NCBI GenBank assembly: GCA_025054775.1
Contig: JANWZA010000054.1
Coordinates: forward strand, 1 to 42,264
Origin: Microscillaceae bacterium
Lineage (GTDB): Bacteria > Bacteroidota > Bacteroidia > Cytophagales > Microscillaceae
DNA: 42,264 nt
Direction of reading: 5' to 3'
This document shows, piece by piece, positions 12,790-21,899 of the stretch. Each line of letters starts with the position of its first letter. Position 1 is the first letter of the stretch. Under the pieces are notes generated by a model that saw only the letters and a list, made by a program, of their open reading frames with translations, searched no databases and had not been told where the DNA came from. A program made the translations under genes and the position numbers.

Positions 12790-14835
12790 CTACCAAATTT
12801 CAATCAATTTATCTTTAGGGCGCCGCATCTTATCACCTTCTTTTACATTGAAGGCTTTGAAAAAAGCTTCCATGTTAGAGATAGGTCCAATGGCACGATA
12901 ATAGCCTGGGGAGTGTGGGTCTGTTTTAATAAGATTAAGAATTGCCTCATCACGAGCTTTGGTACGCCATGCTGTAGCCCAGCCGATAAAAAAGCGTTGT
13001 TCGGCTGTAAAGCCGTCAATAGGTTTAGGTTTGCCTTTTTTAGCCCAGGCTTTCTCCAAAGCGGCATAAGCAATGGCTAATCCACCAAGGTCAGCAATAT
13101 TTTCACCTAAGGTAAGTTTACCATTTACTTTTACGGTGTCTAGTACGGTATAGTTATTAAACTGCTCTACGAGCATACCTGTAAGAGCCTCAAATTTGGT
13201 ACGGTCTTCTTTTGTCCACCAATTTTTTAGATTTCCTTCAGCATCGTATTGACTACCTTGGTCATCAAAACCGTGTGAAAGTTCATGCCCAATAACTGCT
13301 CCGATAGCTCCGTAGTTTATGGCATCGTCTAAATCAGGGTCGAAGAAGGGAGGCTGTAAAATTCCTGCAGGGAAGACGATTTCATTGTTCAAGGGAGAGT
13401 AATAAGCATTGACAGTGGGAGGGGTCATTCCCCAAAGGGTTCTATCTACGGGCTTACCCCAACGATCCATCATTTCTTTCCTACTAACTTCACGTATGCG
13501 AAGCAGATTACCGTAGAAATCATTTCGTTTGATTTCTAGCCCCATGACTTTGTAGTCTTTCCATTTGTCAGGGTAGCCAATTTTGGGTACAATTGCTTGC
13601 AATTTAGCAAGGGCTTTTTGTTTGGTCTCCTCGCTCATCCAGGGGCGTGATTTAATGCGGTCTGCCATAGCTTGTTTTAAGTTTTCAATCATTTCTGCCA
13701 TACGTTGCTTGGCTTCAGGCTTAAAGGCTCGTTCTACGTACATTTGTCCGAGGGCATCTCCGAGGCTGTTATCTACCAACCGCATCATTCTTCGCCAGCG
13801 CGGTTGCATTACCTGAATACCTGCTAAAATACCGCTATTAAATCTGAAATTTTCAGCTACGAAGGCATGGCTTAAATAGGGAGCCATACTAGAGACCACT
13901 TTCCATTTAGAATACGAAATCCAGTCTTGCAGTGAAAAGTCTCCTAAGGCACGGTCAAGCATAGCAACGGTTTCAGGGGCGGCTACAATTACAGAGTCTA
14001 ATTCTTTGAAATCCAGTGCATTGATAAAATTATCCCAGTTGATATTGAAGGTCATTTGTTTCAAATCGTCAATACTCTTTTTATTGTAGCGCTTTTGTGG
14101 GTTGCGGTTTTCTACAGGAGTACGTGCTGCTTCGGCGAGGCGTTTTTCTATACTATAAATACGTTCTGCATTCTTTTTAGCGCTTTCGGAGTTTATACCA
14201 ATTAGTTCTAACATTTTAGCAATATGTTGCAAATATTCCTCGCGGATTTTAACAAAGCGAGGTGTTTCTTCTAAGTAATAAGAGCGATTAGGTAGACCTA
14301 TTCCACTAACACCCAAATAAACGGCATATTTTCGGCTGTTTTTCGCATCAGGGCTAATGCCTAAGCCAAGGGGGGTGGAGATTCCCATTTTGGCGTGGGT
14401 TGCCCATGTCATTACAATCTCATCTTTGCTTTTTAAGTTGTCAAGGCGTGCAAGTTCAGGCTCTATTGGTTTTTTTCCTAATTGCTCAATAGTAAGACTA
14501 TCCATGGCACTTGCGTACAAGTCCCCTACTAGTTGAATAGGACTGCCTGCAGGGGCTTTTTCAGCCTTTTTCAAGGCATCATTTAAGATTTCAAGTAAAA
14601 TTTTCCGATTCCTCTCTTCTATTTCATTGAAAACCCCCCAACGCGATTCAGAGGCAGGAATTTCTGTTTTTTTCATCCAGCCTCCGTTTACAAACATGTA
14701 GAAATCGTCTTGCGGGCGAACAGACTTGTCAAAATTACTCAAGTCTAATCCTTTTTTTTGGGCAAAAGTAGGCACGAATAATAGCCCAGAGCAAAGATAG
14801 CAGAGAAGTTGTAGCCAAATTGTTGGTTGTCTCAT
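12790..14835 (-). CDS. M13-family zinc metallopeptidase (neprilysin/PepO-like), exported
   Basis: 681 residues, the normal length. An N-terminal signal peptide ends FVPTFAQ, then KKGLDLSNFDKSVRPQDDFYMFVNG, which is typical for bacterial M13 enzymes. The zinc site is complete: HELSH with His517, Glu518 and His521, and the third ligand Glu578 in ENIADLGG. The substrate-binding NAYYSP motif (VNAYYSPLNNEIVFPAGILQ, 20 residues) and the C-terminal RRPKDKLIEIW match the family. It probably degrades peptides in the periplasm or as a membrane-linked enzyme. A TATATTTG -7 box is on the minus strand at 14914-14921. It is monocistronic by layout. Confidence 0.95.
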   Translation of the reverse strand: MRQPTIWLQLLCYLCSGLLFVPTFAQKKGLDLSNFDKSVRPQDDFYMFVNGGWMKKTEIPASESRWGVFNEIEERNRKILLEILNDALKKAEKAPAGSPIQLVGDLYASAMDSLTIEQLGKKPIEPELARLDNLKSKDEIVMTWATHAKMGISTPLGLGISPDAKNSRKYAVYLGVSGIGLPNRSYYLEETPRFVKIREEYLQHIAKMLELIGINSESAKKNAERIYSIEKRLAEAARTPVENRNPQKRYNKKSIDDLKQMTFNINWDNFINALDFKELDSVIVAAPETVAMLDRALGDFSLQDWISYSKWKVVSSMAPYLSHAFVAENFRFNSGILAGIQVMQPRWRRMMRLVDNSLGDALGQMYVERAFKPEAKQRMAEMIENLKQAMADRIKSRPWMSEETKQKALAKLQAIVPKIGYPDKWKDYKVMGLEIKRNDFYGNLLRIREVSRKEMMDRWGKPVDRTLWGMTPPTVNAYYSPLNNEIVFPAGILQPPFFDPDLDDAINYGAIGAVIGHELSHGFDDQGSQYDAEGNLKNWWTKEDRTKFEALTGMLVEQFNNYTVLDTVKVNGKLTLGENIADLGGLAIAYAALEKAWAKKGKPKPIDGFTAEQRFFIGWATAWRTKARDEAILNLIKTDPHSPGYYRAIGPISNMEAFFKAFNVKEGDKMRRPKDKLIEIW

Positions 14836-19232: not shown

Positions 19233-20030
19233 TTATGATTTGAGAGCTGTTATCTGCTCCTCTAACCTAAATACTACTTCTTTCAAGTTTTGGATGCTAT
19301 GGATACTATCCTGACACATAGGAAGTTGCCTGCTGATATATGCTACGAACTTCCAAATCTCTAATACCTCTTCTTGGGCTACCTCATAAGGGGCATAAAT
19401 TACATTAGTAGATTTGAGTAAAAAAGTACCCCGTTCTGCTATACGATTATACACCTTCTTAAATACAATTCCTTCACTTTTTAACACTACGATACAGGGT
19501 TGTCCATCTTTTACATCTTTAGTTTGTTCTAGTTTTTCTGCAATAATAATACTGCCGCTGGGGATAGGTAGCATAGAGTCCCCTTGTATTTGAAAAGCAC
19601 GATACAACCTTCCTTTGGTCAAGAAGGGTAAGTTATACTTGGGCAGTTTTTCTATATAGTTCAAATCGGCAAAACCTGCCGTATAACCTGCTGCCGCTTT
19701 CTCTGCTACCAAAGGAATCTCCTCTCTATTTTTTTGAGTAATAATCGTGGAATTGATGCGTAAATTTTTAGCTGAAGCGTAATGATGGATTTGTTTCTTA
19801 TATTCCATTTGTTCTAGATCTGTCTTCTCTAAGTCAGTATTAACAAGATTTTCCAAAGATAAGCCAAAATAGTTAGCTATTTTGTTCAAAGTAGCTATGC
19901 TAGGTTCTGCTCTTCCGTCTTCGTACGAACTGATAACACTTCTTGTAACATTGAGGCGTTGGGCTAATTCTTCTTGGCTTTGTTTGCCATTTTTCTGACG
20001 AAGGTAACGTAAGTTCTTGCTTAAAAACAT
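19233..20030 (-). CDS. XRE-family HTH / S24 (LexA-like) self-cleaving transcriptional regulator
   Basis: 265 residues from the ATG at 20030. The N-terminal HTH_3 domain (SKNLRYLRQKNGKQSQEELA, then TRSVISSYEDGRAEPSIATL) is at about 4-62. The C-terminal S24 peptidase domain has the cleavage-site region EKAAAGYTAGF near residue 110 (Ala-Gly bond), the nucleophile Ser in QGDSMLPI near 155 and the general-base Lys in VVLKSEGIVFKKV near 190. A helical tail (about residues 235-265) may help oligomerise. It is like lambda CI or LexA-type repressors that inactivate themselves with RecA. No phage genes flank it. The frame remains open to an ATG at 20084, rejected because that region holds the promoter (20062-20092). 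Confidence 0.88.
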   Translation of the reverse strand: MFLSKNLRYLRQKNGKQSQEELAQRLNVTRSVISSYEDGRAEPSIATLNKIANYFGLSLENLVNTDLEKTDLEQMEYKKQIHHYASAKNLRINSTIITQKNREEIPLVAEKAAAGYTAGFADLNYIEKLPKYNLPFLTKGRLYRAFQIQGDSMLPIPSGSIIIAEKLEQTKDVKDGQPCIVVLKSEGIVFKKVYNRIAERGTFLLKSTNVIYAPYEVAQEEVLEIWKFVAYISRQLPMCQDSIHSIQNLKEVVFRLEEQITALKS

Positions 20031-20050
20031 ATACTTTGCGAGTTTATTTA

Positions 20051-20073
20051 TACAACTTTCGCAAAAGTATGTA
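20051..20073. promoter_or_regulatory. Candidate operator of the XRE-S24 regulator
   Basis: An imperfect palindrome with core arms ACTTT (20055-20059) and AAAGT (20064-20068) around CGCA, and outer TAC/GTA triplets at 20051-20053 and 20071-20073. It overlaps the -7 element of the regulator's own promoter and lies about 21 bp before its start codon, which fits autorepression. Binding is inferred. Confidence 0.4.
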
Positions 20074-20092
20074 TTATTGAGCAATTAAGCAA
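20062..20092 (-). promoter_or_regulatory. Promoter of the XRE-S24 regulator
   Basis: Minus strand TTG (20090-20092), a 20-nt spacer, then TACTTTTG (20062-20069). This is a good match to the phylum consensus, ending about 32 bp before the start codon at 20030. Confidence 0.55.
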
Positions 20093-20391
20093 ATTTTTAG
20101 ACTTATTTTTTGCTTTTTTTTTAATTTTTTACACAAAAAATGCGTTTTGAGTTTTTTTTTAGCTTATTTGTATATTTTTGTCAAAAAGTAGCAAATAGTG
20201 AAGTCGTTTAGGATTGTAAAAGGTGTCCAATTCAAAGGTTTGTTTTTAGAGGTCTAATCTAAAATAGCCTTTTATGGAAATCTTAATCAAAGATAGTATT
20301 CATAAATACTTACATAGAATGAATAAAAATGAGTCCTAAGCAACTTAACTTAAAAATAACATTTATTTAATCAAAAAATAACATTTTTCGT

Positions 20392-20423
20392 TTGCAAGGT
20401 TAAATTCTTTCGCATTACATTTG
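20392..20423 (+). promoter_or_regulatory. Promoter of the HEEYH exported protein gene
   Basis: TTG (20392-20394), a 21-nt spacer and TACATTTG (20416-20423), about 100 bp before the ATG at 20526. The rest of the 495-bp gap between 20031 and 20525 shows only the divergent promoter and operator of the regulator. Confidence 0.55.
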
Positions 20424-20525: not shown

Positions 20526-21899
20526 ATGGACTCCAAAAAGAATTTTCTCGTTTTATTTCTTGTTCTATTTCGTTTCCATATACTTACTGCCCAAAGCCCG
20601 ACTGATACAACAAGTCTGTTGTTAGATTTTCCAATACTAGATTTGCCCTATCAAAACTATGCAAGCCGTACCACAGGCAATTTTTTGGCAGGCTATGCTA
20701 ATCCGAGTATGCCTCAATCGTTAGCAGTTTCTAGTAATTTTTATAGTGCCGTTCATTATGGCATAGGTAAAGCCATCAAAGTTAAAAATCAAGCATTGCA
20801 GTCTCTGCTTACGATTACAGCAGTCTCTGTATTTGATATACTTTCTCTTTCTATTCCTCCTGGAGTAGCTTGGTTGCACGAGGAGTATCACCGAGCCGTA
20901 CTAACACGTCGTAAGATAAATAGCTATAATGATGTGAACAAGTTTCCTATTGGGCAAAGTGTAATCAATGTGAGTAATTTGAGAGACGAGGATTTAACAC
21001 GACTTTATGATAATCATCGAAAGGATTTTATTCGTTTACAGGCGGCGGGTATAGAAGGGCAATATCAGCAAATTCAGGTTTTACAAAGAGATAATTTTTT
21101 CTTTAATTCTGATTTAATGCACGTACCCTTGTATTGGTTTAGCACAATAAATAGTATAGTTTATGTAAACGACTCAGGAAAAGGAGATTATTTTGATAAA
21201 GTAATAGATGAAGCTAATGCCAAAGAAACGGATATTCGCGAACGTGATTTCACAGGACCTGATTTTACGGCTTGGGTAGAAGCCCTGTTTAATCCACAAA
21301 AAGTGTATGCTGACCGAGGTACACACCCAACAGGTATAGGTATCAATCGTTATATCAAACCTTCGCAACTTACAGACGAGGAGCGCAATTATTTGCAAAA
21401 CCAAGGGGCTTTGCAATGGCTTAATATCCTATCTCCGCACTTGTTTGGTTTCACTAAAATAAAGTTAAGAACTTCGGGAAAGGGTAATTATTATGGTAAT
21501 TTTGCTATACGGCACTTGCTTACTTCTTTTGGGCATAACGTAGGGTTTGATATTTTTTACCAAAGTCCTAAAATAAACCTGTTGTTCACTTTGCATCGCT
21601 ACAAAAACTTTAATCAAGGTTTTTGGGGAGTAGAAACTCACCTTATAGACAAACTTTTACTTAACGACCGTCTACGCCTCAATACAAGAGCTATGCTTTG
21701 GGTACAACCTAAAAATCAAGCTTTTAGGACAACAGAAGGAAATTTGGGAGGATTGCTTGGACTAAAAGCTATGTACCAAGTGGGTAAAGTATTTCCTTAT
21801 CTCTCTTTGGAAGCAAAAACACAAGGCTGGGTTATGGGGAATGTCTTTTTAGAAGAGAATGTTTCCGTAAATGCAGGTTTGCAATGGCGAATAAAGTAA
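20526..21899 (+). CDS. Exported protein of unknown function with an HExxH motif, probable outer-membrane barrel
   Basis: 457 residues. The N-terminal signal peptide (FLVLFLVLFRFHILTAQ) ends A-Q. A hydrophobic stretch with GVAWLHEEYHRAV follows, placing HEEYH at 118-122, the classical zinc-metallopeptidase HExxH pattern. A possible third ligand Glu lies about 50 residues on (GIEGQYQ). The last 150 residues alternate polar and hydrophobic positions in short strands (NYYGNFAIRHLLTSF, FDIFYQSPKINLLFTLHRY, TRAMLWVQP, YLSLEAKTQGWV) and end in an aromatic/basic strand LQWRIK. That is compatible with a small outer-membrane barrel. I do not recognise a named family; protease activity is only a hypothesis. 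Confidence 0.75.
   Translation: MDSKKNFLVLFLVLFRFHILTAQSPTDTTSLLLDFPILDLPYQNYASRTTGNFLAGYANPSMPQSLAVSSNFYSAVHYGIGKAIKVKNQALQSLLTITAVSVFDILSLSIPPGVAWLHEEYHRAVLTRRKINSYNDVNKFPIGQSVINVSNLRDEDLTRLYDNHRKDFIRLQAAGIEGQYQQIQVLQRDNFFFNSDLMHVPLYWFSTINSIVYVNDSGKGDYFDKVIDEANAKETDIRERDFTGPDFTAWVEALFNPQKVYADRGTHPTGIGINRYIKPSQLTDEERNYLQNQGALQWLNILSPHLFGFTKIKLRTSGKGNYYGNFAIRHLLTSFGHNVGFDIFYQSPKINLLFTLHRYKNFNQGFWGVETHLIDKLLLNDRLRLNTRAMLWVQPKNQAFRTTEGNLGGLLGLKAMYQVGKVFPYLSLEAKTQGWVMGNVFLEENVSVNAGLQWRIK

Follow-up and report, generated by a model that had tools for sequence, protein, structure and literature searches.

Conserved HExxH motif in an exported protein

The locus analyzed here raises the question of whether an HExxH motif in an exported, apparently barrel-forming protein marks a genuine metal site or a coincidence of composition. 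The window, i.e., the whole stretch of 42,264 nucleotides under study (contig JANWZA010000054.1 of a Microscillaceae bacterium), carries at positions 20526..21899 of the forward strand (stop codon included) an open reading frame for a protein of 457 amino acids, the extent of which is supported by near full-length homologues. The protein begins with a signal peptide (residues 1–23; 20526..20594, +), which was recognized by sequence reading and hydropathy only, with no dedicated predictor, and which comprises a hydrophobic stretch at residues 5–16 followed by TAQ, with no lipobox cysteine; Q23, at its end, is present in 89 of 96 aligned sequences. Approximately 100 bases 5′ of the start codon lies a Bacteroidota-type promoter-like pattern match, TTTG-N21-TACATTTG (20391..20423, +). 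The general pattern, TTTG-N17-23-TAnnTTTG, which we take to represent the Bacteroidota promoter consensus, occurs at 12 places in the window compared with 4.0 expected by shuffling and is thus 3 times commoner than expected.

The HEEYH motif that the sequence-only reading had placed at residues 118–122 is indeed there (20877..20891, +), with H118 and H122 as the proposed ligands and E119 as the proposed general base, and it is preceded by a hydrophobic helix (residues 89–106; mean Kyte–Doolittle value of 1.42). Approximately 0.010 HExxH motifs are expected by chance in a protein of such length and composition; by composition, a single HExxH is mildly unusual, and the real test is conservation. 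We relied on 32 sequences, the window protein included, which were obtained in whole-genome searches without any motif requirement (21 via a single-protein search and 11 via a profile that itself contains the motif) and which have a median pairwise identity of 29%. H118 is conserved in all 32, and E119, E120, and H122 are each conserved in 31, so that the conservation of the two histidines and of Glu119, on which the earlier reading had made its case depend, held up. After reduction to 70% non-redundancy (n = 26), the respective counts were 26 for H118 and 25 for each of the other three, and for comparison, the mean frequency of the commonest residue per column is 0.46.

Across the larger set of 96 aligned sequences, the motif is similarly close to invariant (H118 in 96; E119, E120, and H122 in 95 each; R123 in 94), and a later homologue, L140, also carries HEEYH. 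Loci L038–L117 are, however, uninformative on the retention of HExxH, because the search pattern with which they were found required HEE[FYG]HR. The classic zincin pattern, abXHEbbHbc, calls for residues without charge both at the x positions and directly behind the second His; the uncharged pattern is absent here, as E120 and R123 are charged in nearly all members.

Distribution of the family

The single-protein whole-genome search matched 21 of 390 genomes from the same order, and the profile search matched 14 of 395 from the class and 3 of 395 from the phylum; these genome sets overlap, and the genome carrying the window is part of each count. Of 123 genomes from another order, 4 gave a match, 2 of them known from the preceding searches. 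A pattern-based scan returned 95 confirmed places, of which 80 were kept; these were mostly from Bacteroidota, with additional matches in Gemmatimonadota, in an Orenia isolate, and in metagenome bins labeled Treponema, Fibrobacter, WOR-3, Marinimicrobia, and Kapaibacterium. The distribution of the family is thus patchy. In a quick tree, the Gemmatimonadota rows formed one group and the Spirochaetota rows another. Two plasmid records matched, both annotated and both from Spirosoma plasmids, in which the family member is labeled as a hypothetical protein; no match was obtained in the phage records searched, and no described protein of this type was found in the open-licence PMC literature.

The combined collection comprised 117 loci, 11 of which were dropped, leaving 106 with 96 distinct sequences. 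The dropped entries were the window itself encountered again (L022), four loci matching mainly via the C-terminal barrel (L033, L034, L035, and L037), one in which the frame enters another gene (L108), and five that were split or cut (L052, L071, L077, L083, and L085). In L052, L071, L077, and L083, the reading frame of the homologue is split into two or more pieces. In L108 (43-2520), at a contig start, the reading frame of a family member's N-terminal portion continues into an apparent DNA polymerase I, which may reflect chimeric assembly or gene truncation. L037 differs in its N-terminal part and lacks HExxH, an indication that other inserts may occur on this barrel.

None of the Pfam or NCBIfam models matched more than 2 of 73 members, and searches against Pfam, NCBIfam, and PHROGs gave isolated weak matches only, the best single one being Pfam DUF6950 in 1 of 73 members (E = 0.00097). 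Among the Pfam peptidase families, there was no match at an E value of 0.1 or better. We discarded an NCBIfam match of the CPBP type (2 of 73 members, best E = 0.0028), given that the protein has EExxR in place of the EExxxR of the CPBP type. A match to a phage T5 fibre protein in a PDB sequence search (E = 0.0018, 63 residues around RDFTG) was taken as chance because it spans neither HExxH nor the barrel. An M50-like reading, based on HExxH together with AGxE, was dropped, as most of the helices are not long hydrophobic spans.

Predicted barrel with a helical insert

AlphaFold2 modeled the full-length protein (73 sequences) with a pLDDT of 94.7 and a pTM of 0.91, as a strand at residues 31–40, helices from 42 to 307, and then nine strands up to residue 456. 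The whole protein is accordingly predicted to be a ten-strand barrel of the outer-membrane type, in which a helical insert of approximately 270 residues separates strand 1 (residues 31–40; 20616..20645, +) from strands 2–10 (residues 312–456; 21459..21893, +). The number of antiparallel strands in the model is even (10), and hydrophobicity alternates in 9 of them, strand 1 included, with the strand at residues 365–378 not being clear-cut. The last strand carries the pattern N-x-G451-x-x-W-x-I, in which G451 is conserved in 94 of 96 sequences and which resembles what we take to be the beta-signal. Foldseek comparison of the whole model with the PDB recovered mostly outer-membrane barrels, albeit with a best E value of 1.8e-3 and none below 0.001, and the best 50 VIA matches listed were all barrels (Z of 6.4 to 8.3), the top one having a Z of 8.3 and an rmsd of 5.2 over 216 aligned residues. 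The model, the strand alternation, and the PDB matches thus bear out, as a prediction, the earlier view of an exported barrel protein. The description of a small outer-membrane barrel was correct as to the predicted barrel and incomplete as to the remainder, since residues 41–311, more than half of the protein, are predicted to fold as a helical domain of their own, with the motif inside it.

This all-helical domain (20646..21458, +), which appears in the full-length model, was also predicted with high scores on its own (pLDDT of 95.8, pTM of 0.93). Its comparison with the PDB gave no convincing match (best Foldseek E of 1.0; best VIA Z of 5.6, with an rmsd of 4.6 over 149 residues), and the best match among viral structures had an E value of only 1.6. 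No known fold was therefore recognized in the predicted domain, which does not prove a new fold. A zincin fold gains no support from these comparisons, in which the modeled domain convincingly matches no solved fold of the PDB; the fold-match lists of the domain contain no zincins, an absence that is not counted against membership.

The orientation of the domain was assessed from the loops of the barrel. The four turns on the side of the domain have lengths of 2, 4, 7 or 9, and 13 residues (95 rows counted) and a mean conservation of 0.51, whereas the four turns on the opposite side are variable in length and have a mean conservation of 0.18; we infer that packing of the helical domain against these conserved loops is probable. 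The N and C termini are both found at the opposite end of the barrel, and termini are periplasmic in known outer-membrane barrels; the domain would therefore face outward, as the first extracellular loop of the barrel. Conserved loops on the side of the domain and variable turns on the opposite side are not usual for an outward-facing side, and they lend some weight to a reversed topology, given that the turns away from the domain vary in both length and sequence, as outward loops usually do. With the domain in the periplasm, the enzyme could serve outer-membrane proteins or the cell wall, an arrangement combinable with any of the chemistries considered below. Such a topology would place both chain ends outside, contrary to known outer-membrane barrels, and we regard it as decidedly improbable.

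Candidate third ligand and natural variants

Besides the motif, several residues of the helical domain are invariant or nearly so in the 96 aligned sequences, including D154, G175, D241, G244, R275, N300, and P304 (96 each) as well as Y213 (21162..21164, +) and D246 (95 each). The last is located in the segment R240-D241-F-T-G-P-D246-F-T-A-W250 (21243..21275, +) and is, from its conservation and from the variants and cousins described below, our preferred candidate for a third metal ligand. The sequence-only reading had proposed instead the Glu of GIEGQYQ, i.e., Glu177 in the conserved element G175-x-E177-x-Q179 (21048..21062, +). Position 177 is Glu in 69, Gln in 22, and His in 5 of the 96 sequences, so that 27 of 96 have Gln or His; on these counts, Glu177 appears a weaker candidate than D246. 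Residue 177 or 179 is nonetheless Glu, Asp, or His in all 96 sequences, with Gln177 being paired with Glu179 in 22 of 22 cases, and the two positions together stay an alternative.

The only one of the 96 sequences without HExxH is L007, which has HNEFT at this place. Up to residue 361, 17 columns are conserved in 94 or more of the 96 sequences, and L007 departs at 5 of them (E119N, H122T, R123K, Y213A, and D246E), followed by L021 with 2 departures, and no other member has more than 2; at the 90% level (27 columns), L007 additionally has S133G and R240I. L007 keeps D154, G175, D241, G244, R275, N300, and P304 and has Glu at position 177. The concurrent loss of HExxH, Y213, and D246 ties the latter two residues to the site of the motif, as judged from a single sequence that is cut by a contig end and sits on a long branch; no homologue was found in 9 other genomes of the same bacterial family. 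L021 departs at E120, R123, and R240, and in addition has W250Y, yet retains HExxH, Y213, and D246, a pattern that sets the core of the putative site apart from a presumed second shell formed by E120, R123, and R240.

A cousin branch varies the motif itself. At the position of the motif, 6 of 13 cousins (L118, L119, L139, L142, L144, and L145), of which L142 came from among the genome-search matches, have H-E-x-[FY]-G-H, and the four residues H, E, G, and H, the Asp aligned with D246, and many barrel residues are invariant in these six sequences. Glu at the position of residue 177 is absent from one of them (L144). The other 7 cousins (L120–L125 and L129) belong to a single bacterial family; they retain the barrel and have QDxxG(H/S), e.g., QDFFGS, in place of HExxGH, apparently representing a lineage that lost the site; the 13 cousins include near-copies (L120 and L121; L124 and L129). 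An HExxH elsewhere in the sequence of one of the QD cousins, L122, was taken as chance. The Asp opposite D246, placed by eye, persists in 6 of these 7 QD cousins and may thus have another role, which weakens D246 as a pure ligand. An hhalign comparison of a profile of 8 cousins (2 with HExxGH and 6 without) with the family aligned residues 118–457 (97.6%, E = 2.9e-12); the helical domain alone gave only an E value of 0.098, and the link between the family and the cousins is therefore mostly barrel-based. A profile of 4 HExxGH cousins likewise matched the gene of the window in its own genome within the barrel (E = 4e-4). L007, L021, and the cousin branch provide a short list of residues for a direct test of the site.

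Comparison with known metallopeptidases and barrel enzymes

The exchange between HExxH and HExxGH has a precedent in dipeptidyl peptidase III (M49), for which a published report describes both motifs within one family with no significant change in the zinc site (PMC5805324); a second example of HExxH in M49, HELMH, appears in another report (PMC9820243), and M49 enzymes are described as cytosolic. Similarly, 6 of 13 cousins have HExxGH, and the present branch has HEExH, with HExxH in 95 of 96 members. The M49 precedent implies that such an exchange is natural for a metal site and does not imply membership; in contrast to M49, the second motif of that family, EEC(K/R)A(D/E), is found in none of the 96 members or 13 cousins. 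A combination of HExxH with Asp as the proposed third ligand is shared with the Asp-zincins (M35 and relatives), in which the Asp reportedly follows close behind the motif, as HExxHxxGxxD (PMC3890501). This extended motif is, however, absent from all 96 members and all 13 cousins, and D246 is located 124 residues after H122.

With the omptins (OmpT), the protein shares a predicted ten-strand outer-membrane barrel and a presumed extracellular hydrolytic site, a likeness by position only. To our knowledge, omptins have neither a separate catalytic domain nor HExxH, and the Pfam omptin model gave no match to the protein up to an E value of 10. In shape, the barrel compares with NanC, PorB, and OMPLA (Foldseek E of 0.0034, 0.018, and 0.076, respectively) and with PorB, KdgM, NanC, and OMPLA (VIA Z of 8.3, 8.1, 7.5, and 6.8), which are 7–11% identical to the protein and none of which, as far as we know, has a helical HExxH domain. 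We are aware of few outer-membrane barrel enzymes and of no case in which such an enzyme bears a metallopeptidase-type site within its own helical domain.

Proposed function

An outer-membrane metalloenzyme of undescribed type had been suggested on the basis of the motif. The conserved HExxH triad, the predicted barrel, and the lack of a covering family model among those searched agree with this suggestion, and the chemistry that follows is a proposal. We consider it reasonably probable that the protein is an outer-membrane-anchored hydrolase, most likely a peptidase, that depends on a metal, probably zinc. H118 and H122 would bind the metal, with D246, or else residue 177 or 179, completing the site; E119 would activate water, Y213 would stabilize the transition state, and E120, R123, and R240 would form the second shell. 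Given an outward-facing domain, cleavage of some target on the cell surface or in the surrounding medium might be expected, and an active protein would add both a type of surface enzyme and a fold. More tentatively, and with the balance of probability against it, the family might constitute a new metallopeptidase clan with an undescribed all-helical fold and a site of two His and one Asp, held in the first extracellular loop of a ten-strand barrel. In that case, we would know of no earlier example of a metallopeptidase that is itself an integral outer-membrane barrel, and its HExxH and HExxGH branches would repeat the M49 motif switch in another fold.

Other roles for the conserved cluster have to be weighed against a hydrolase. 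PagL, LpxR, PagP, and OMPLA are barrel enzymes that act on lipids, and OMPLA is among the barrel matches, both of which would fit a lipid- or LPS-modifying outer-membrane enzyme, such as a deacylase or phospholipase, using the same metal site; the active sites of these enzymes are nevertheless on the barrel and not in a separate helical domain, and the barrel matches are generic, making this an unlikely reading. A metal-binding surface protein without hydrolytic activity, in which the HExxH/Asp cluster would be a structural center or serve metal capture or sensing, would also fit the near-invariant motif residues, which are conserved whatever their role; moreover, the neighboring genes give no clue to a substrate, and the fold-match lists are devoid of zincins. 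Yet E119, kept in nearly every member, is not needed for binding alone, and the joint change of E119, H122, Y213, and D246 in L007, with the other conserved residues kept, suggests a loss of activity rather than of fold, so that we view such a protein as quite unlikely. The all-helical character of the domain and the near-invariance of E119, E120, H122, D154, D241, and D246 would also be consistent with a metal oxidoreductase or oxygenase, with HEExH belonging to a 2-His-1-carboxylate iron site or contributing ExxH as one half of a di-iron site. A second conserved motif of this kind is lacking, however, and the exchange of HExxH and HExxGH between branches has its precedent in zinc peptidases; an oxidoreductase is accordingly very unlikely, and a metal-dependent hydrolase is the reading that we prefer.

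Genomic context

The gene is divergent from a repressor-like gene with HTH_3 and Peptidase S24 domains (19233-20084, −), located 441 bases away. The predicted repressor neighbor to which the earlier reading had drawn attention is present in the window, but it is unmatched beside the homologues: blastp at an E value of 1e-8 recovered no match to the S24 repressor in the flanking sequence retrieved for 80 homologous loci, which extended to 6 kb at most and was often shorter. No constant partner gene was found across the 80 loci, and the gene looks self-standing. By our reading of the neighboring genes, 12 loci contain LytTR-type regulators and 10 contain sensor-kinase-type genes.

Several neighborhoods are recorded here as read from the sequences. 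Four homologues (L042, L048, L079, and L081) lie directly beside genes for secreted proteins that look like the erythromycin-esterase type, and three (L086, L088, and L094) directly beside genes for secreted proteins that look like S41-type peptidases, with LytTR or AraC-type regulators nearby. Four further loci with HEEGH-type motifs (L111, L113, L114, and L115) are near an HlyD-type-looking gene and a gene that looks like a C39-peptidase ABC exporter. The window itself also encodes a 681-amino acid protein with HELSH (12790-14835, −), which presumably resembles an M13 neprilysin-type peptidase and which we take to be an ordinary second metallopeptidase in the window.
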